64,000 bases of DNA from NCBI RefSeq assembly GCF_000255295.1, contig NC_017030.1, positions 3,596,001 to 3,660,000 of the forward strand, given 5' to 3'. Positions 5,710-29,049 of the stretch are shown one piece after another. The DNA comes from Corallococcus coralloides DSM 2259 (GTDB lineage Bacteria; Myxococcota; Myxococcia; Myxococcales; Myxococcaceae). The position numbers and the translations under genes are program-made. The first letter of the stretch is position 1. Every line of letters starts with the position of its first letter. Below the pieces are notes generated by a model. That model saw only the letters and a list, made by a program, of their open reading frames with translations, was not told the origin of the DNA and did not search any database.

Positions 5710-6641
5710 GCGTCCAGGCCACGAGTGTCACCCCGGCCCAGGCCCCGGAGGCCGCCTCGCGCAGCGGAGGGCTTGCGCGCCATCGCAACGCCGTTGCCGG
5801 CTATGCCTTCCTGGCGCCCTTCCTCCTGTTCTACGCCGTCTTCCTGCTCTATCCCTTCGCGCTGGGCCTGTGGATGAGCCTGCACGACTGGGAGATCGTC
5901 GGGGACTTTCGCGAGTACATCGGCTTCTTGAACTACGCGGAGCTGTGGGACGACCCGTACTTCTGGGACGCCCTCAAGCGCACCCTGCAGTTCGCCGCCA
6001 TGACGGCTCCGGCCGCGACGTTGCTGGGACTCATCCTGGCCCTGGCGCTCCAGAAGCCGTTGCGCATCTACGCCGCGCTGCGGGCCGTCTTCTTCGCCTC
6101 CAACATCTTCTCCGTCACCGTCGTCACCCTGGTGTGGGCCATGGTGCTCAACCCCGACCGCGGCCTCATCGCCAACGGCCTGCGCGCGGTGGGCCTTGAG
6201 CCCATCGCCTTCCTGGCCGACAAGGACTGGGCCATGCCAGCGCTGATGGTGACCTCCCTGTGGTGGACCGCCGGCCTCCCGATGGCGCTCTTCCTTGCCG
6301 GCCTCCAGCAGATCCCCCCGGAGGTCTACGAGGCGGCCCGGCTGGACAAGGCCTCGCGGTGGGCGGTGCTGCGGCACATCACGCTTCCGGCGCTCGCGCG
6401 CACCACGCTGCTCGTGGTGGTGCTCCAGACGGTGATGCACCTCCAGGTGTTCGGCCAGCCGCTGCTGATGACGCGCGGCGGGCCCGCCAACTCCACCCGG
6501 CCGCTGGTGCAGCTCATCTACGAGACGAGCTTCCGCGACTGGCGCTCCGGCTACGCGTCCGCCATCTCCACGGTGCTGTTCGTCCTGATGTTCGGCGTGG
6601 CGCTGCTGCAGTTCCGCCTGTCGCGGCAGGAAGGGGAGTGA
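5706..6641 (+). CDS. Sugar ABC importer permease (MalF/UgpA type)
   Basis: Inner-membrane permease, 311 residues, with about six hydrophobic segments; the first is GYAFLAPFLLFYAVFLLYPF. The cytoplasmic EAA loop that docks on the ATPase is seen as EVYEAARLDKASRWAVLRHI followed by TLPALARTT. The ATG overlaps the stop of the ATPase gene. A second permease follows four bases after the stop. This pairing of two different permeases is the standard CUT1 layout. Confidence 0.93.
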   Translation: MSVQATSVTPAQAPEAASRSGGLARHRNAVAGYAFLAPFLLFYAVFLLYPFALGLWMSLHDWEIVGDFREYIGFLNYAELWDDPYFWDALKRTLQFAAMTAPAATLLGLILALALQKPLRIYAALRAVFFASNIFSVTVVTLVWAMVLNPDRGLIANGLRAVGLEPIAFLADKDWAMPALMVTSLWWTAGLPMALFLAGLQQIPPEVYEAARLDKASRWAVLRHITLPALARTTLLVVVLQTVMHLQVFGQPLLMTRGGPANSTRPLVQLIYETSFRDWRSGYASAISTVLFVLMFGVALLQFRLSRQEGE

Positions 6642-6645
6642 CGCG

Positions 6646-7470
6646 ATGAACCGGACCCTGACGGACCGCCTCATCCTCGCCCTGGTGGTGGTCGCCGCCT
6701 TCGTGTGGATGATGCCGATGCTGTGGGTGTTGACCCTGTCGCTCAAGCCCAACGAGGAGCTGGTGCGCTCCACGAACGGCATCATCCCCTGGCCGCGCAC
6801 CCTGGAGCACTTCGCCACGTTGCTGCGGGTATCCCTGACGCCGCGCTGGCTGCTCAACAGCGTGGTGGTCGCCCTGGGCATGACGGCGGCCACGCTGCTG
6901 CTGTCGTCGCTCGCCGGCTACGCGTTCGCCCGCATCGACTTCCCTGGACGCCGCGCCGTCTTCCTGCTGGTGATGGCCGGGCTCATGGTGCCCGAGCAGG
7001 CCATCCTCGTGCCCCTGCACGCCATGTTCGCGGACTGGGAGCTGCACAACACGTACTTCTCCCTCATCGCCCCCCGCCTGGCCGGGCCGATGGGCGTGTT
7101 CCTGATGACGCAGTTCTTCAAGGCGGTTCCCCGCGAATTGGAGGAGGCCGCGGAGCTCGACAACGCCGGCCGCTTCAAGATCTTCTGGTCGGTGATGTTG
7201 CCGCTGTCGCGCCCCGCGCTGACGACGTTGGGCATCTTCACCTTCCTGTTCGCCTGGAATGACTTCCTCTGGCCCGTCGTCACCGCGACGCAGCCGGAGA
7301 TGTACACGCTCAGCGTCGGGCTTGGCTCGCTGCAGGGCAACTTCGCGATGTCGGAGGGGCTCGGGTTCCTGATGGCGTCGGCCGTGTTCGCCAGCGCCCC
7401 CATGCTCATCCTCTACATCGTGTTCCAACGCTACATCGTGCAAGGCATTGCCATCACTGGCGGCAAGTAG
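6646..7470 (+). CDS. Sugar ABC importer permease (MalG/UgpE type)
   Basis: Second transmembrane subunit of the importer, 274 residues, with six predicted helices starting at residues 8-26. The EAA loop is clear as ELEEAAELDNAGRFKIFWSV followed by MLPLSRPAL. The C-terminal YIVQGIAITGGK (YIVQG, then a GAVKG-like ending) is typical of this subunit family. A GGGGAG ribosome site lies just before the ATG. It is located between the first permease and the binding-protein gene, all on one strand with gaps under 20 bases. Confidence 0.93.
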   Translation: MNRTLTDRLILALVVVAAFVWMMPMLWVLTLSLKPNEELVRSTNGIIPWPRTLEHFATLLRVSLTPRWLLNSVVVALGMTAATLLLSSLAGYAFARIDFPGRRAVFLLVMAGLMVPEQAILVPLHAMFADWELHNTYFSLIAPRLAGPMGVFLMTQFFKAVPRELEEAAELDNAGRFKIFWSVMLPLSRPALTTLGIFTFLFAWNDFLWPVVTATQPEMYTLSVGLGSLQGNFAMSEGLGFLMASAVFASAPMLILYIVFQRYIVQGIAITGGK

Positions 7471-7488
7471 CCGAATGGAGCCTCGCCC

Positions 7489-8811
7489 ATGAAGATGAAG
7501 ACGCTCCTGCCGGCACTGCTGCTGGCCGCGATGCTCGGTACCACCTCCGCGCGGGCCGGGACGGAGATCACCCTGTTCCGCTTCTTTGGCGGGTGCAGCG
7601 ACGCGTACGCCCACGTCACGGACGTGTCGAAGGCGGTGGGCGAGTGCGGCATCGTCCAGGTGCTGACCAACAAGTTCAACGCGGAGAACACGGACGGCAT
7701 CACCGTCAAGACGCAGTCGGTGGAGTGGGGCGTCTACTACGACCGGCTGAGCGCCAACGTCGCGGGCCGCACCCCGCCGGACATCGCCGTCATGCACCGC
7801 AGCGTCCTGCCGAACTACCAGGTGCGCAACCTCCTGCTGCCGCTGGGCAAGGACTTCGCGGCGGCGGGCATCGACGTCGCGGACTTCGTGCCGGCGGCAC
7901 GCGAGGGCGTCACCGCCAACGGCGAGGTCTGGGCCCTGCCGTTCGACCTCCACTCCCTGCTGTGGCACGTCAACGCCGACCTGTTCATCCGGGCGGGGCT
8001 CGTGGACGAGCAGGGCCAGCCGAAGCTGCCCCGAAGCCCCGCCGAGCTGATGCAACACGCCGCGACGATGAAGGCGAAGACAGGCAAGTCCTACTTCGCC
8101 ATCCCCTCCGGTGCGGACCCGATGCCCTCCTGGCAGTACCTCACCTGGGTCTGGCAGCAGGGCGGCAACATCGTGGACGCGCAGAAGAAAGAGGCGCTGC
8201 TGGAGTCGAAGGAGAGCCGGGAGGCGCTGCGCCTGCTCGACGCGCTCTACGCGGCGGGCTTCGCCAATCCCCAACACGACTACGCCTCCGCGCAGCAGGC
8301 CTTCCTCGCCGGAGAGGCGGCGGTGCTGGTGAACGGCACCTGGGGCGTGGACACGTACGCGGCCCAGGCCGCGACGGGGAAGTCAGGCCTCAAGAACTAT
8401 GTCGTGCGTGACATGCCCTCCCTCTACGGCAGGGACGCCGTCTGGTCCGACAGCCACACGTGGGTCATGCCGAAGCAGCCGAAGCCGGATGCCGCGAAGC
8501 AGAAGGCGGCGCTCACCTTCCTGAAGTTCCTCAACGACAACAGCCTCCAGTGGGCCCGGACGGGGCACCTGCCGGTGCGCGTCTCTGTGCTGCAGAGCGC
8601 GCAGATGCGAGCCCTGCCGCACCGGGCGGAGTACACGCGCACCGCCACCATCGCCACGGCGCTGCCGCCCATCCAGTACCAGCGCGCTTTGGGAGATCTG
8701 CTGGTCAACGAGCTGAACTCCACCTGGCTGGTCCAGAAGGATCCGGACAAGGCCCTGGCGGATTCCCAGCGGGCGGCCGCGAGCATCCTGCGCCGCTCCC
8801 GACGCAGATAG
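7489..8811 (+). CDS. Extracellular solute-binding protein of the sugar ABC importer
   Basis: Periplasmic sugar-binding protein, family 1 (MalE/UgpB-like), 440 residues. The N-terminus MKMKTLLPALLLAAMLGT ending in ARA-G is a good Sec signal peptide with no lipobox. Family features include TEITLFRFFGG, PPDIAVMH, EVWALPFDLHSLLWHVNADL with the usual domestic hinge segment, and FLAGEAAVLVNGTWGV. Two cysteines near the N-terminus of the mature protein (in GGCSD and GECGI) may form a disulfide. Being downstream of both permeases and upstream of two GH43-like genes, it should deliver the glycan fragment to the permeases. Ligand unknown. Confidence 0.93.
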   Translation: MKMKTLLPALLLAAMLGTTSARAGTEITLFRFFGGCSDAYAHVTDVSKAVGECGIVQVLTNKFNAENTDGITVKTQSVEWGVYYDRLSANVAGRTPPDIAVMHRSVLPNYQVRNLLLPLGKDFAAAGIDVADFVPAAREGVTANGEVWALPFDLHSLLWHVNADLFIRAGLVDEQGQPKLPRSPAELMQHAATMKAKTGKSYFAIPSGADPMPSWQYLTWVWQQGGNIVDAQKKEALLESKESREALRLLDALYAAGFANPQHDYASAQQAFLAGEAAVLVNGTWGVDTYAAQAATGKSGLKNYVVRDMPSLYGRDAVWSDSHTWVMPKQPKPDAAKQKAALTFLKFLNDNSLQWARTGHLPVRVSVLQSAQMRALPHRAEYTRTATIATALPPIQYQRALGDLLVNELNSTWLVQKDPDKALADSQRAAASILRRSRRR

Positions 8812-23240: not shown

Positions 23241-23492
23241 GAAGCCCCCCTGGTGAGGACGAAGCCCGGCCACTTCGTTGGGCCGATAGCCTACACCACT
23301 CAAGCGGCCCTACCACGTGTCCCGGAGTCCACTGCCCTGGCTTCAGTGCCCCTGAGTCACCGCCACGACGTTCTCGCCGCTTTCTCCCTTCTCGCGGGCC
23401 TGCGACTTCCCGGACTGCCTTGAGCGTGCGGAGGAATTCTGCCGTCGCCGTTCGGAGTTGACAGCCATCCGGCGCTGACGGAGCACGAGGGC

Positions 23493-23804
23493 ATGATCGA
23501 GCTCCCCGAGCGCGCCGCGATGCCGGACTACCAGCGGTACATCCACGACCTGGAGTCGCTGCACGGCTGGCTCCAGCAGGACCTGGTCCACAACTGCTTC
23601 CGGATGGGCGAGGAGGTGGGCGAGCTCTTCAAGGCGGTGCGCCAGTACGAAAAGCAGCCCTCCGAGGCGCGGGCTCGCGAGCACGTGGGAGAGGAGCTGG
23701 TGGACGTGCTCAACTACCTCCTGGCCATCGCCAACCGCGCGGGCGTGGACCTGGAGCAGGCCTTCCGGGAGAAGAACGCGCGCAACCAGCAGCGCACCTG
23801 GTGA
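23493..23804 (+). CDS. MazG-like nucleotide pyrophosphohydrolase
   Basis: A 103-residue all-alpha NTP pyrophosphohydrolase. The metal-binding pair of motifs is present as RMGEEVGELFKAV and GEELVDVLNYLLAIANRAGV, giving E-E-x-x-E and E-E-x-x-D, and the end EKNARNQQRTW resembles the usual KN-x-R-x-W finish. Such small MazG-type enzymes remove non-canonical nucleotides. ATG 23493 is used; ATG 23520 is in frame. Confidence 0.85.
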   Translation: MIELPERAAMPDYQRYIHDLESLHGWLQQDLVHNCFRMGEEVGELFKAVRQYEKQPSEARAREHVGEELVDVLNYLLAIANRAGVDLEQAFREKNARNQQRTW

Positions 23805-23814
23805 TGAAGCCCGC

Positions 23815-24128
23815 TCACGTCCGGCCCCGCACGAAGTCCACGAAGGCCTTGAGCACGGGCGGCAGGCGTCTGCGGCTCGGGGAGTAGAGGAAGAAGCCGG
23901 AGTAGGGCGGGCACCAGGACTCCAGCACTCGGACCCACCGTCCCTGGTCGAGCGCGGCCAGGTCCCGGAGCGTCTTCGAGGGCGGGTGCTTCGCGCAGTA
24001 CGCAGGCGTGGCGACGATGGCTGTCCTCAGTGGAATGGCCCCCTGTCCGCGGCCGCCGCCCGACGGAAGTTCAGGTGCCGGGCGATCTCCAGGAACACCG
24101 TCAGCTCACGGACGTCGTCGGCCTGCAT
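23815..24128 (-). pseudogene. LysR-type regulator with its middle deleted
   Basis: From ATG 24128 the protein begins like a LysR regulator, MQADDVRELTVFLEIARHLN then FRRAAA, but stops at 24027 after 33 residues. In another frame, from about 24018 to the stop at 23815, a typical LysR C-terminus follows: TAIVATPAYCAKHPPSKTL and VLKAFVDFVRGRT. About 200 residues expected between these parts are missing, so a deletion and frameshift destroyed the gene. The DNA-binding head cannot be complete. Confidence 0.8.
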
Positions 24129-24296
24129 GGAGGCTCCCTTTTCATTGTTGAGTCCCTCTCTGATGGGCCTGGGGCCACGCCCTCTTCGTTTCACGGCGTC
24201 TCGTGCGGCAGCATTTGGCCCGGTTTTCCCAGGACTCACATTGGGGCTAGCCTGGAGACTGAGAGGGCACCCGCTGATGAGTGACCGAAGGGGGAG

Positions 24297-24545
24297 ATGA
24301 TGGGCCGCTTTTCCTACGCGTCGATGCGGAAGAGGGAGGCAAAGGAGCAAGAGCGACAGAATCAACTGCGCCTTGCGCGCGAATCCGCGGAGGAGAGCAA
24401 GGCGCGGATCGAGGAGTTGAAGTCGACGCACAAGGCATGTAGCGCTCCTATCGATTGGCGAGCACTCGCGGCCAGTCTGCCTCCTGCGCCGGTGACCCCT
24501 ACCCACTGGGCGGAGCGTTCAGCCGACCGCCTAACGCGCCCATGA
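24297..24545 (+). CDS. Small charged coiled-coil protein, coupled to the next gene
   Basis: An 82-residue protein with a very charged helix (MRKREAKEQERQNQLRLARE, then SAEESKARIEELKS) and a Pro/Ala/Trp-rich end (IDWRALAASLPPAPVTPTHW). GGGGGAG directly precedes two tandem ATGs (24297 and 24300). Its TGA overlaps the ATG of the next gene by four bases (ATGA), so both are likely translated together. No family recognised; the end of the frame could also be a shortened version of a longer protein. Confidence 0.5.
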   Translation: MMGRFSYASMRKREAKEQERQNQLRLARESAEESKARIEELKSTHKACSAPIDWRALAASLPPAPVTPTHWAERSADRLTRP

Positions 24546-25699
24546 CAGACCAGCCAGACGTCTCGCCGCAACTGCTGCAAAAGAATGCAGAGCAGCTGGC
24601 GAAGCTCGAGCCTGACTGGAGCGAGCTAGGGCCTTGGAGGCAAATCGACTACCACTGCAGGTTTCCAGATGAGAGGCGATCTGAGGCTTTCTGCATCAAA
24701 GCGCAAAAGGCTGGATTTGAAACCAGAGCATTTATCAATGACGGCAGTGGCCATTGTGTCACGGCTTCTGTGAGGATTGAGCCTGCGGCCCTCAAGATAA
24801 CGCAACTGCAAGAACAGCTCATGTCATTCTTGGAGGACTCTGACGGTTATGAATGGTCTTGCGTGGATGGTTGGAGCTACCCGCCAAAGAAGCAAGTTCA
24901 TTTCTGGCCCTCTTCAGACAACGAGTACGCGGTTAAAGCTAGAGCGTCCGTGTTGTTCGGATCCGATTTGGTCGAGGATCCCTTAGAGACAAGAAGAGTT
25001 CCATTTCAGGCGTCCAGCCAGGCTCGCCCGGTCTTCAAGCTGGTACCTTCCGAGTTTCTGCGAAAGGCGCGGGCGATGCCGCCGGTGGACCCACAACCCA
25101 CGGCATCTGCGTTCGCACAATGGGTCTACTCCCTCTACGGTCGAGCCGAAGGCAGCGAAGACGACGTCGCTGACGGGAAGGCGGCAGAGCAAGACATATG
25201 GGAGCGGCGACGGGGGGCCGCGAGTTGCAACGACAATCGATTTTTGCGTGCAGCAGGTTGGCAGTGGTCCCTCATTCACAACGGTCTCGACCTACGTGAC
25301 CGCGACAGGGCCAACCACTTCCTGATTCCCGCTCTTCGGGTGAACGGCGAGCCGCTGCGGGCTTCACCGGACTTGATGTACGCCAGCGCCGACAAGTCCG
25401 AGGTCATGATCGTCGAAATCAAGTTCTCGCGACAGGCACTGCCCAAAAACCTCTGGCCCAATGTTTGGGCTCAGCTCTGGTGCTACGCGCAGCTTGAGAC
25501 GGTTCGCAGCGCGCGGAAGCTAACGGTCGTCGGTGAAGTATGGGGAGAGAAATGGACAAGGGGATACAGAGTTCGGGGTGGGCGTGAGCCGGGGAAGGCT
25601 CTCGTCTGCCTGCGAGCGCTGGTGCGGCGAGACCCGCGCGCTTCCTCTTATGATCGGTTCTTCCGCCAGCTATTCAATATTTACACAGGCAGTTGCTGA
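24542..25699 (+). CDS. RraB-like domain fused to a PD-(D/E)XK-like nuclease domain
   Basis: A 385-residue protein from ATG 24542. Residues about 30-110 resemble the RraB/ribonuclease-E-inhibitor fold (EAFCIKAQKAGFETRAFIND, then ITQLQEQLMSFLED and GYEWSCVDGWSY). Residues about 190-385 contain RFLRAAGWQWSLIHNGLDL, ASPDLMYASADKSEVMIVEI followed by KFSR, which fits a PD-(D/E)XK core with Asp in SPD and the E-x-K of VEIKF. The conserved WAQLWCYAQLETV helix follows. The first half is clearly poorer in GC than the window. No exact family could be named; a nuclease function is inference. It is coupled to the small protein before it. Confidence 0.6.
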   Translation: MTDQPDVSPQLLQKNAEQLAKLEPDWSELGPWRQIDYHCRFPDERRSEAFCIKAQKAGFETRAFINDGSGHCVTASVRIEPAALKITQLQEQLMSFLEDSDGYEWSCVDGWSYPPKKQVHFWPSSDNEYAVKARASVLFGSDLVEDPLETRRVPFQASSQARPVFKLVPSEFLRKARAMPPVDPQPTASAFAQWVYSLYGRAEGSEDDVADGKAAEQDIWERRRGAASCNDNRFLRAAGWQWSLIHNGLDLRDRDRANHFLIPALRVNGEPLRASPDLMYASADKSEVMIVEIKFSRQALPKNLWPNVWAQLWCYAQLETVRSARKLTVVGEVWGEKWTRGYRVRGGREPGKALVCLRALVRRDPRASSYDRFFRQLFNIYTGSC

Positions 25700-25798
25700 A
25701 TCGGCCGTCTGCAATCCATCCAATTCTACGTGCCGTGGTTGGGGCCGCTCGCGGAAACACCGACCGCGTGACGCGTTACGCGGAGTCTGCGGGGAAAA

Positions 25799-25824
25799 GC
25801 GAAGTGCCCCTCCCAGCACTTCGC
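25799..25824 (-). terminator. Rho-independent terminator for the small minus-strand gene
   Basis: GCGAAGTGC (25799-25807) pairs perfectly with GCACTTCGC (25816-25824) over an eight-base loop; on the minus strand the stem is followed by TTTTCCCC. It begins five bases after the stop of the 41-residue frame, supporting that gene. Confidence 0.6.
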
Positions 25825-25828
25825 CCGG

Positions 25829-25954
25829 CTACCGCTGGGCCTTGCTGCCCAGAGCCTTGAGCGCCGCAGTCAGCACGACGACTGCGACATCGCGCAGCAC
25901 CGGGCTGCGCGCCAAATCCTTGAACCACTCGGGCATGGTCTCCTCGTTGGCCAC
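25829..25954 (-). CDS. Possible small protein of 41 residues
   Basis: A GTG start at 25954 has GGAGG seven bases upstream and the frame ends directly at a good terminator. The protein begins VANEETMPEWFKDLARSP and has a hydrophobic stretch VLRDVAVVVLTAALKAL, then a basic end GSKAQR, like a short membrane-binding peptide. No family is known to me. ATG 25936 would give 35 residues. Too short to be certain from sequence alone. Confidence 0.4.
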   Translation of the reverse strand: MANEETMPEWFKDLARSPVLRDVAVVVLTAALKALGSKAQR

Positions 25955-26065
25955 CGTCGGTCCTCCGCCACGCTGCGGAGGACCCGGGAGGCGTCCGTCT
26001 GTGTCGCATTCGAACGAAGCCGCAGTTCTCAGAGGAGTTCCTCCGATTTCCGGCCCCTTCCCAGT

Positions 26066-26091
26066 TGTCCCCGACGGGATTCGAACCCGTG
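26066..26091 (-). repeat. 26-bp copy of the 3' end of tRNA-Glu (att-like)
   Basis: This stretch is identical to 35099-35124, which is the T-arm, acceptor strand and discriminator base of the intact tRNA-Glu gene, in the same orientation. The 5' half of a tRNA is absent. Such a 3' fragment is the classic trace of integration into a tRNA gene. Confidence 0.75.
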
Positions 26092-26214
26092 GAGGAGGGG
26101 TGCCCTAAACCCGCGACGGCACACGCCTTTCGAGAAATCGCGAGTGAATCGGGGCACGTCGAGCCCACGGGGCAGTTCCCGCCAGTCCCGGCTGTCACCC
26201 GGAGTCCCCTCCAG

Positions 26215-26236
26215 TTTTGGAGACATTTGGGAGACG
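26215..26236. repeat. GGAGAC double-box repeat, left copy
   Basis: TTTTGGAGACATTTGGGAGACG, itself two related ten-base boxes, resembles TTTAGGAGACGTTCTGGAGACG at 35008-35029 (18 of 22 identical). Both copies lie just inside the ends of the tRNA-fragment-flanked segment. Confidence 0.4.
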
Positions 26237-26284
26237 GGAGGAGCACGGGTCTCCAGAGAGGTTCGTGGGAGCCCAACGGTAGCG

Positions 26285-26725
26285 TGTGCCCTGGCGAGGT
26301 GCGGAGTGCTGACGCACGGGTTCGCGAGGGTGCGCTGCGAGAGTTGCAAGGACGAACTGCTCGTCGCCTTCTCTTGCAAGAGGCGAGGGGTGTGCCCCTC
26401 CTGTAACGCCATGCGGGCGCAGGTGACGGCGGCACACCTGGTGGAGCGGGTGCTGCCGCACGTGCCCTACCGGCAGTGGACGCTGTCCTTTCCGCACCGG
26501 GTGCAGGGGCCGCGGGGCGGGCAGGTCGGGGCCGTGTCGTTCATCCAGTTCTTCGGCTCGGCGTTGCAAGTGACGCCGCATTTCCACTCGCTGGTGCCGG
26601 ACGGCGTCTTCGTGCTGGGAGAGGGCTGCGTGCGCTTCGAGGCGTTGCCGCCGCCCACGCAAGGTGAGGTGGAGCGACTGCTGAGGGTGGTGCGTCTTGG
26701 GAGGACATGGTGTTGCCCACGATGA
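26285..26725 (+). pseudogene. Remnant of an IS91-family transposase
   Basis: The frame shows the zinc-binding head of IS91-type transposases, CGVLTHGFARVRCESC, AFSCKRRGVCPSCNAMR and VPYRQWTLSFPHRV, followed much too soon by the catalytic-region block GAVSFIQFFGSALQVTPHFH then SLVPDGVF, and then ends. The N-terminus, an internal piece and the Tyr-containing C-terminus are missing, so this is an inactive relic. Family assignment rests on the cysteine pattern and the HFH block. Confidence 0.75.
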
Positions 26726-26899
26726 GTGCGCACCTGGCCCCGGCGCGAGGGGCACCCCAGGCCGCGTGGTGTTGAGGCTTACGCCGCCCCAGCGCCAACA
26801 AGCCCAGGCTGCTGCCGCGCACCTCATGGGAGGGCGACCTGGGCAGGCGTGTCCCTCAAGGGGCTCAAGCGGCCTCTCAACCGACCGGGTGCGCTGCTC

Positions 26900-27157
26900 G
26901 AGCGGCCCCTGTCAGCGGCCCCTGTCAGCGACGGAGTCCAGGTCCTGGTCCGTGCGGGCTACCACGTCCTCAGCCTCAACTACCGGGGCTCCACGGGGTA
27001 TGGCGCGCGCTTCGAGCACTCGGGCGATGACGCATCACGCGCGCTCGCGAGCGCGGGCGCGTGGAGCATCTTCGATGGCGAGGGCCATCACATCCACCGC
27101 CTGCGCTCCTGGCCCCAGGTCCATGCGGCCACCGTGTCACTGCTGGATACGTTCTGA
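26900..27157 (+). pseudogene. Remnant of a prolyl-oligopeptidase-type (S9) peptidase
   Basis: Text such as VLVRAGYHVLSLNYRGSTGY matches the region upstream of the catalytic Ser in S9 peptidases and FDGEGHHIHRLRSWPQVHAA matches the region of the catalytic His at the C-terminus, but the piece with the nucleophile Ser (G-x-S-x-G) is missing. The gene is thus internally deleted and without a proper start. It ends 56 bases before the next gene. Confidence 0.65.
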
Positions 27158-27213
27158 GCCCGGATCGCGCTTCCGTGTCATGGAGTCATGCGCCCGGTGT
27201 ATTGTTCGTGCAT

Positions 27214-29049
27214 ATGCATTGGCACTTGCACCTGAAGCGCGCGGCCCTGCTGGCGGTGCTCTTCGCGGCGTCCGGGCTCACCGGAGTCGACGCGCACGCA
27301 CAACAATGTGGCCCCGAAGCACCTCCCCCCGCCGTCCCTCTCAATGACCAGATGAGCGGCACGCGGGTCTTGCGCCGCCTCGTCCTCGGTCTCACGGGGA
27401 CGACGCCCACCGTCGAGCAGTACGAGGCGATGGCGGCCGCGACCACGCCCGAGGCGCGGGAATCCATCCTGCGCTCCACGCTCGAGGCCGCGCTCGGCTC
27501 GCCGAAGTTCTACGAGCGGATGGTGAACTTCGGCCACGAGTGGCTCGCGGTGGGCGCATACACCACCGGCGCGGCGGGTGACGCCTACCAGGGCGACATG
27601 TCCGGCCACCTCTTCAAGTGCGACGCCAACACTGCGCACGCGGGCGCGTACTACGCCGTGCACGAGTTCGGCGATAAGGACCCGGCCAGGCAGTGCCTGG
27701 ACCAGGACGCCAACGGCGACCCCGCCGTGCCCGAGGTGCACCAGGTGGAGCCCTGGTGGGCGCCGGGCACCACCGTCACCGTGCTCGGCAAGGCCGGCTC
27801 CGACGTCACCCAGGTCACCGACAGCAAGGGCCAGCCGGTCGACTGCGGCCTCGCGACCGGCGGCTACTACGACCCCATGCTGCCCCCCGCGTGCGGCTGC
27901 GGCCCGAACCTGGTGTGGTGCAGCCCGCTCTACGGCCTCCATAGCAAGAGCAACTACGACTTCGGCATGCAGCGCCGGCACCCCTACGAGGAGCCCGCGC
28001 GCCTCTTCGCGCACCTCGCGTGGCACGACCGGCCGCTCTCGGACCTCATCCTCGGGAACTACTCGGTCGGCACCAACTGGCTGCGCGCGCTGTACGTGCG
28101 CTTCGGCCGGCAGATGGGCAACAGCGCGCTGGACAAGAACACCACGTGGTGGCGTCCCGACGCGGACACCGCGCCGCGCGACCCGCTGCACCCCACGCCG
28201 AATGATCCGCAGGCGTGGCGCGAGTTCGTGGTCGAGGACCTGGAGCCCTTCCACCTCGCGCTCACCCCGAACCGGGCGCGCTCCGGCAGCATCGACCGCA
28301 CCTACCGCTTCGACCCGCGCACCACGACCGACGCGCCCCAGGGCCTCCCCACCGCGGGCGTGCTCACCATGATCGGCTCACTGTCGTCCTTCCCGCGCGA
28401 GCGCGTCCGGGCCGCGCGCTTCCTCGAGATGTTCGCCTGCCAGAGCTTCTCGCCACCGCCCGCGGACGTGCACTTCCCGCCCCTGGAGGTGGACCCCGGC
28501 ACCGGCGGCACGTGCCTGCACTGCCACCGGACGCTCGACCCCGCGGCCATCTCCTTCAAGCGCTGGGACTTCAACCCGGCCCAGAGCTTCTACGTCCCGT
28601 GGCCCTTCATGCCGGGCGTGGGCCGCTACCGCATCACCAAGGAGTGGCTGTCCGGGCAGTACCCGTACACCGGCACCTCGCCGGGCTACCGCTGGAAGAA
28701 CGCGTTCGTCCCCAACACAATCCTCACGCCCGTCACCCCCGAGCAGGTGAAGGCCAACCCCGAGGCGGTGCTGCTCGACACGATGCCCGACACGTACACG
28801 CTGCTCGGCGAGCACGGCGACGGCACCATGGGCCCGCTCGGCTTCGGGAAGCTCGTCGTGCGCTCCGGCGAGTTCGACCGCTGCGTCGCGCGCAGGATGT
28901 ATTCGATGTTCATCGGCCGCGACCTGAACACGGCCACGGAGAAGGGCTTCATCGACAAGCTCGCGCGGGAGTTCGTCGCGGGCGACCGGAAGCTGAGACC
29001 CTTCATCCGATACCTCTTCGAACAGCCCGAGCTGCGGAGGGGCCTGTGA
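27214..29049 (+). CDS. Secreted DUF1592/DUF1588-type protein with CxxCH motif
   Basis: A 611-residue exported protein (leader HLKRAALLAVLFAASGLT ending near AHA-Q). It begins with a Planctomycete/myxobacterial-type block (RVLRRLVLGLTGTTPTVEQY) and later has the DUF1588-like region GGTCLHCHRTLDPAAISFKR with a single C-x-x-C-H, the covalent heme signature of c-type cytochromes, and a DUF1585-like end (FDRCVARRMYSMFIGRD). The start is uncertain: no ribosome site precedes ATG 27214 and in-frame GTGs lie upstream. It overlaps the following gene by one base. These proteins are usually encoded next to a DUF1552 or DUF1501 partner; their function is unknown. Confidence 0.72.
   Translation: MHWHLHLKRAALLAVLFAASGLTGVDAHAQQCGPEAPPPAVPLNDQMSGTRVLRRLVLGLTGTTPTVEQYEAMAAATTPEARESILRSTLEAALGSPKFYERMVNFGHEWLAVGAYTTGAAGDAYQGDMSGHLFKCDANTAHAGAYYAVHEFGDKDPARQCLDQDANGDPAVPEVHQVEPWWAPGTTVTVLGKAGSDVTQVTDSKGQPVDCGLATGGYYDPMLPPACGCGPNLVWCSPLYGLHSKSNYDFGMQRRHPYEEPARLFAHLAWHDRPLSDLILGNYSVGTNWLRALYVRFGRQMGNSALDKNTTWWRPDADTAPRDPLHPTPNDPQAWREFVVEDLEPFHLALTPNRARSGSIDRTYRFDPRTTTDAPQGLPTAGVLTMIGSLSSFPRERVRAARFLEMFACQSFSPPPADVHFPPLEVDPGTGGTCLHCHRTLDPAAISFKRWDFNPAQSFYVPWPFMPGVGRYRITKEWLSGQYPYTGTSPGYRWKNAFVPNTILTPVTPEQVKANPEAVLLDTMPDTYTLLGEHGDGTMGPLGFGKLVVRSGEFDRCVARRMYSMFIGRDLNTATEKGFIDKLAREFVAGDRKLRPFIRYLFEQPELRRGL

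Follow-up and report, generated by a model that had tools for sequence, protein, structure and literature searches.

An open reading frame derived from a broken SNIPE-operon gene overlaps a rare RraB-like/nuclease-like fusion gene in a myxobacterial genome

Two open reading frames (ORFs) that overlap by ATGA in a myxobacterial genome look like a coupled gene pair, and our analysis showed that the pair is an accident and that the fusion protein encoded by the larger gene is real and rare. The smaller ORF is the broken 5' fragment of a 325-aa gene, here called gene A, which was joined by recombination to an intact gene for a 385-aa protein. The window, by which we mean the whole 64,000-nt stretch of DNA that was analysed, comes from a 10.08 Mb single-contig genome. 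In our estimate, there is a probability of about 0.6 that the locus is a recombination junction between a gene A stub and a foreign RraB-nuclease gene, and that this gene arrived by horizontal transfer and encodes a nuclease for defence that carries an added RraB-like module.

Results

The locus and its variable surroundings

The earlier note had described two ORFs overlapping by ATGA, and both ORFs and the overlap are real. The small ORF (82 aa, positions 24297-24545) is a truncated gene A whose stop codon comes from the ATGA start of the next gene, and the larger gene (385 aa, positions 24542-25699) is intact and encodes a fusion of an RraB-like domain with a PD-(D/E)XK-like nuclease. Both lie on the plus strand, with the overlap at 24542-24545. 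The larger gene had also been said to be poorer in GC than its surroundings, and this was confirmed, since its GC content is 57.7% against 69.0% for the whole window, and its GC at codon position 3 is 64.9%, where the neighbouring MazG gene has 97.1%.

The MazG gene is on the left side of the locus, and the right-hand gene gave DUF1549/DUF1585 matches that were below the cut-offs of Pfam. The description of these surroundings as gene-decayed was correct, because they contain a probable LysR-family gene remnant and an IS91-type transposase relic. The LysR remnant (23815-24155, minus strand) consists of pieces that match L028 and L030, and the internal deletion proposed for it is supported by the two pieces 23815-23946 and 24053-24152, which match stretches of L028 about 680 bases apart; but its HTH_1 match (E 0.0046) is under the curated cut-off of Pfam, so the assignment to LysR is only probable. 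The IS91 relic (26285-26611, plus strand) was readily recovered, with matches to Zn_Tnp_IS91 (E 5.1e-16) and Y2_Tnp (E 9.9e-7). The tRNA fragment that had been reported in the same region did not hold up, as ARAGORN called no tRNA there, Rfam gave none at E ≤ 1, and what can be seen is a T-arm-like string near 26070-26095, by eye only. There was also no tRNA at 16 related loci, and the idea of a tRNA integration site has no support. The piece at 26066-26266 is present at the same locus in genome G059, where it adjoins 27070, so this piece is independent of the 385-aa gene.

Comparison within the genus showed how variable this place is. The matches to 23438-23830 and 27035-27700 abut in the same-genus genome G068, so the segment 23831-27034 (strand not applicable), approximately 3.2 kb, is extra in the source genome. 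Another genome of the genus (G070) has other sequence at this place, and in 15 other same-genus genomes none of the matches listed touches 24157-26044. Thus, the interval from the MazG gene to the DUF1549/DUF1585-like gene (23438-27700) is a variable insertion spot among same-genus genomes. The idea of a mobile-looking island is supported by this in an indirect way, through the absence of the segment in G068.

The N-terminal domain of the 385-aa protein is RraB-like

The N-terminal half of the larger protein had been compared with RraB, and this is well supported by Pfam and hhalign, with a top Foldseek hit that points the same way. Pfam RraB (PF06877) matched residues 15-111 (24584-24874, plus strand) with an E value of 8.5e-7 and 29.9 bits, over the curated cut-off of 23.3. 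In hhalign, residues 1-118 gave 95.2% against 11 RraB domains, which were chosen from 20 loci fetched, and 0.1% against a PDDEXK_1 control set. The top Foldseek hit of the full-length AlphaFold model, which is a poor model (mean pLDDT 42.5), was 1nxi (V. cholerae VC0424, E 5.3e-3), which we take to be an RraB structure. Searched by sequence against solved structures, the RraB part gave chance matches only (E 0.68 and up).

RraB domains were found in 29 of the 145 genomes of the order. Compared with RraB proper, a regulator of RNase E, the domain studied here is a weak member that differs in being fused to a nuclease-like domain and in having GYEW where a YDGW end is common in myxobacterial RraB domains. 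The fusion of RraB and nuclease was seen in the source genome only. The RraB family was not found in any of the nuclease members scanned, tblastn with RraB residues 1-115 found nothing at E ≤ 0.01 at the 8 other loci of the nuclease family, and among the titles listed on RraB, RNase E inhibition, polymorphic toxins or defence none concerned such a fusion. The N-terminal regions of the Caballeronia and pHG1 relatives of the nuclease (see below) can still be aligned with residues 116-150, so the RraB-like domain looks as if it had been added to a whole nuclease protein, with nothing obvious cut out of the nuclease.

The C-terminal domain belongs to a rare family

Residues 165-385 (25034-25696, plus strand) form the nuclease-like domain, which was delimited by its similarity to stand-alone proteins. 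It has 31-54% identity to four of these, from Caballeronia, Cupriavidus, Variovorax and Rhodoferax, and these similarities place the C-terminal part in a rare family of stand-alone proteins that has no name and comes mostly from Burkholderiales. One relative is that of Caballeronia pedi (L002). Five plasmid records, which stand for four replicons, contain others: pHG1 of C. necator is represented twice, Variovorax and Rhodoferax have one each, and C. oxalaticus has a degenerate piece. The pHG1 protein (WP_011154064.1) has 53.6% identity over residues 165-381 of the 385-aa protein; unlike the latter, it is 310 aa long and has no RraB match, and its gene is flanked by AbiJ-like genes on one side and a Gabija pair on the other. 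On the C. oxalaticus plasmid, the degenerate nuclease piece (L007:8001-8268) adjoins a 2285-aa ORF.

The family is rare in every sample. A relative was present in 3 of 399 genomes of the Burkholderiales sample and in 2 of 369 genomes of the class sample, with the genome of L002 itself counted in both. The phylum Myxococcota gave 1 of 195 genomes, which was the source genome, and within the order the nuclease gene was again found only there (0 in the 144 others of 145). The counts for order and phylum, the low GC and the absence of the segment in G068 are evidence for a foreign origin of the 385-aa gene. A phage origin was rejected, as there was no match in phage records, and pattern scans confirmed none in viral contigs.

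An alignment of 8 proteins, the 385-aa protein included, showed the putative catalytic residues E216, D277, E292, K294 and Q311 (25187-25474, plus strand). PD, ExK and QLW are kept in 8/8 of the proteins, and the helix-A glutamate (the E216 column) is kept in 7/8, with L014 having a glutamate two residues on. The motifs of Cas4/RecB-type nucleases are described as GxxxE ... PD ... ExK ... QxxxY, and the 385-aa protein has the same order as members of the PD-(D/E)XK type such as PDDEXK_1, Cas4, ACE1 and RecE. A crude motif pattern occurred in none of 20000 shuffles of the 385-aa protein, which is a weak control because the pattern was written after the sequence had been seen.

Profile and fold comparisons were much weaker. 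PDDEXK_1 matched 2 of 7 family members (best E 0.0022), with no match at E ≤ 1 in the 385-aa protein and P0003-P0005. The hhalign comparison with 11 PDDEXK_1 domains, chosen from 30 loci, gave a probability of approximately 1%, yet the alignment was in register at the core. The AlphaFold models were built with the 385-aa protein and L002 sequences only, and the C-terminal model had a mean pLDDT of 44.3. Its six top hits in Foldseek were chains of ACE1, which is of the Cas4 family, and of SSO0001, a Cas4, with non-significant E values of 0.022-0.055; there was no Foldseek hit at E ≤ 0.001 for either low-confidence model. VIA-align, with a poor model, gave Z ≤ 5.1 and mainly TDP2/DNase-I-like and sex-pheromone-precursor structures at the top. 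A search by sequence found no solved relative for the whole 385-aa protein or for the A3 profile.

The earlier note had proposed a PD-(D/E)XK core, and the E...PD...ExK...Q motif set is consistent with this; but the profile and fold matches are weak, so the superfamily call depends mainly on the motifs. What sets the protein apart from the Cas4/RecB type is that it has no significant profile match, that no CRISPR or recombination partner was seen, and that its family has its own conserved motifs, FxxWVYSLY and VGEVW. PADLOC had no family for the small ORF, the 385-aa protein or P0003-P0005; PADLOC and PHROGs had none for the fusion, and NCBIfam had only a chance-level one. Chance-level family hits were Erm55 (E 0.036) and DUF4129. 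In the libraries scanned, only the RraB part of the fusion protein was matched.

These data also allow us to weigh the explanation that the 385-aa gene is a dead or accidental chimera of an RraB piece and a nuclease with no function. We consider this unlikely, but it is the most serious of the competing explanations: the surroundings are decayed, the fusion occurs in one genome only, and the two halves of the gene differ in position-3 GC (57.7% and 68.8%), but all 385 codons are open, the catalytic set is intact, and the linker of residues 116-150 can still be aligned with the N-terminal part of the Caballeronia and pHG1 proteins.

Neighbours of the stand-alone relatives

The neighbourhoods of six relatives with flanks were viewed. 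On pHG1 (L004), two AbiJ-like genes are before the nuclease gene and GajA (E 5.5e-224) and GajB (E 2.5e-176) are after it. At L078, HsdM, HsdS and GmrSD_N are on one side of the nuclease relative and a Fic-like gene is on the other side, and at L006 there is a TIR gene near the relative. At L002, L005 and L077, no obvious defence neighbours were found by annotation or ORF reading; PADLOC was run on 10 neighbours picked by eye, none of which was at these three loci. Defence genes were thus present at 3 of the 6 loci, which is suggestive and is not a measured enrichment. The defence context proposed in the earlier note therefore has indirect support, from the SNIPE-operon fragment in front of the 385-aa gene and from these three loci. 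As regards the arrangement of the genes, L004:5754-12350 is a compact defence island with two AbiJ-like genes, the nuclease relative and GajA/GajB, and L078:721-11601 is a stretch with type I HsdM/HsdS, GmrSD_N, the nuclease relative and the Fic-like gene.

The same neighbourhoods bear on another explanation, in which the family serves the repair or maintenance of large plasmids and not defence, and the RraB-like domain regulates the nuclease or connects it with RNA metabolism. Plasmids do carry three full relatives and one fragment, in one case with topoisomerase genes as neighbours, but L077 is on a 4.47-Mb contig that is presumably chromosomal, half of the loci have defence genes beside them, and the distribution given above is very patchy, with the Caballeronia genome counted in both samples. 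We therefore regard plasmid maintenance as improbable.

The small ORF is a piece of gene A

The 82-aa protein was searched in the 145 genomes of the order, with E ≤ 0.1 taken as a match. Matches were found in 38 genomes, but only three of them were strong, namely the protein itself, G046 (93%, E 3.9e-43) and G075 (78%, E 2.8e-35), and the next-best match had an E value of 0.004 and 26% identity. G046 and G075 represent two other genera of the family, and in both of them gene A is complete with 325 aa; the identity of the small protein to their gene A products over residues 1-81 is 93% and 78%, respectively. The sequence of the small ORF is the start of this 325-aa protein, so the small ORF is not a gene of its own, and the small coiled-coil gene proposed in the earlier note is a 5' fragment of gene A.

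At the DNA level, the gene A fragment is on the plus strand at 24215-24538 and consists of a leader of approximately 80 bp and the first 81 codons, as determined by blastn to G046 (88.3% over 24215-24538) and G075 (78.8% over 24224-24534). The homology ends at 24538, 4 nt before the ATG of the 385-aa gene (24542), and the TGA of the small ORF comes from the incoming ATGACAG, which meant that the overlap is a recombination scar. By tblastn, neither the rest of gene A nor a SNIPE gene was found in the window, where the only other gene A match was at chance level (E 0.046). At E ≤ 0.001, an alignment of gene A found matches in 6 of the 145 genomes: two full-length copies, the stub studied here, and three short and weak matches (E 4.9e-4 to 8.5e-4) that were read as chance. 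Pfam matched gene A only at chance level, PADLOC gave no match for it, and the small ORF had chance-level family matches only. Relatives of the small ORF on plasmids were considered and rejected, as the two matches (E 0.2 and 0.5) were at chance level.

In G046 and G075, a SNIPE gene (scanned as 569 and 596 aa, respectively) comes directly after gene A, so both full-length copies of gene A among the 145 genomes adjoin SNIPE. These proteins have DUF4041 and T5orf172/MUG113 domains and match PADLOC PD-Lambda-1 at E 3e-106 and 4.5e-107. Gene A (325 aa) and SNIPE are at L075:8262-9236 and 6525-8252 and at L076:8033-9007 and 6218-8008, all on the minus strand. PD-Lambda-1 and SNIPE are taken by us to be one system. 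SNIPE is described as a membrane-bound nuclease that cuts phage DNA during injection (PMC13190303), and the domains given there agree with this assignment. PD-Lambda-1 matched 40 of the 145 genomes at E ≤ 0.001, and at this threshold there was no match to SNIPE in the source genome. The link of the locus to SNIPE/PD-Lambda-1 (DUF4041 + GIY-YIG, PADLOC PDLC03976) is thus the 5' fragment of its upstream gene A, and the locus differs from that system in that no SNIPE gene or remnant was found and in that the nuclease next to the fragment belongs to a different family.

The co-occurrence of a small partner with the nuclease was also examined at the loci of the relatives. A search for the small ORF at 8 nuclease loci gave nothing at E ≤ 0.01; six of these loci were informative (L007 is degenerate and L080 starts at a contig end). 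Homologues that lack the small partner are what the earlier note had named as refuting its proposal. At 4 of the 6 loci (L002, L004, L006 and L078), ORFs with lengths of 50-128 aa finish close to the start of the nuclease gene, and at L002 a 104-aa ORF overlaps it; these ORFs were counted mechanically and are putative genes at most, and they are unrelated to the small ORF, with no match to it. A genuine translationally coupled pair, whether toxin-antitoxin or regulator-nuclease, has in its favour the ATGA overlap, the same strand, the open frames, the codon usage (the frame of the small ORF is the best of six) and the ORFs just mentioned, but it is largely refuted and hardly credible, as the toxin-antitoxin-style partner suggested before is a piece of the first gene of a SNIPE operon that breaks off sharply in front of the nuclease gene, owes its coding look to gene A, and has no match at the 8 nuclease loci.

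Discussion

With the truncation, the junction, the relations to RraB and to the Burkholderiales stand-alone proteins, and the rarity established by the comparisons above, we consider it most likely that the 385-aa gene was acquired horizontally and that its product is a defence nuclease with an added RraB-like module, nuclease fold and function being inferred. The locus is a recombination junction inside the variable insertion between the MazG and DUF1549/DUF1585-like genes. Its left half is the leader and 81 codons of gene A, with the rest of gene A and all of SNIPE gone, and its right half is an intact, most likely foreign gene for the RraB-like/PD-(D/E)XK-like fusion. The incoming nuclease gene may have been joined to the stub of the SNIPE operon by illegitimate recombination or by a deletion, and it could now borrow the promoter of the gene A stub and perhaps also its translation.

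Going by its motifs, the C-terminal domain would be a Cas4/RecB-type DNase that depends on metal; it would cut incoming DNA and protect on its own against phages or plasmids. The RraB-like domain may be an added module for protein binding by which the nuclease is localised or restrained. A bolder version is a long shot at present: here the proteins would form an unrecognised family of stand-alone Cas4/RecB-like defence nucleases, the RraB-like domain would have been added in this myxobacterium as a docking or guard module that binds the RNA-degradation machinery of the host (RNase E), or a phage factor that attacks this machinery, and so positions or releases the DNase when a phage infects, and the gene would have captured the SNIPE promoter for its expression in a new host.

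The analysis corrects a tempting call of a gene pair, since the broken front end of a defence operon can mimic an ATGA-coupled partner. Gene A together with SNIPE in two myxobacterial genera is possibly a two-gene variant of SNIPE, a candidate that suggests an accessory gene in some SNIPE systems. The C-terminal domain points to a rare nuclease family that is unmatched in the libraries scanned and has, at 3 of 6 loci, Gabija and AbiJ, type I restriction-modification or TIR genes beside it. If the nuclease is active, its fusion to an RraB-like domain would be a testable link between the control of RNA decay and phage defence.
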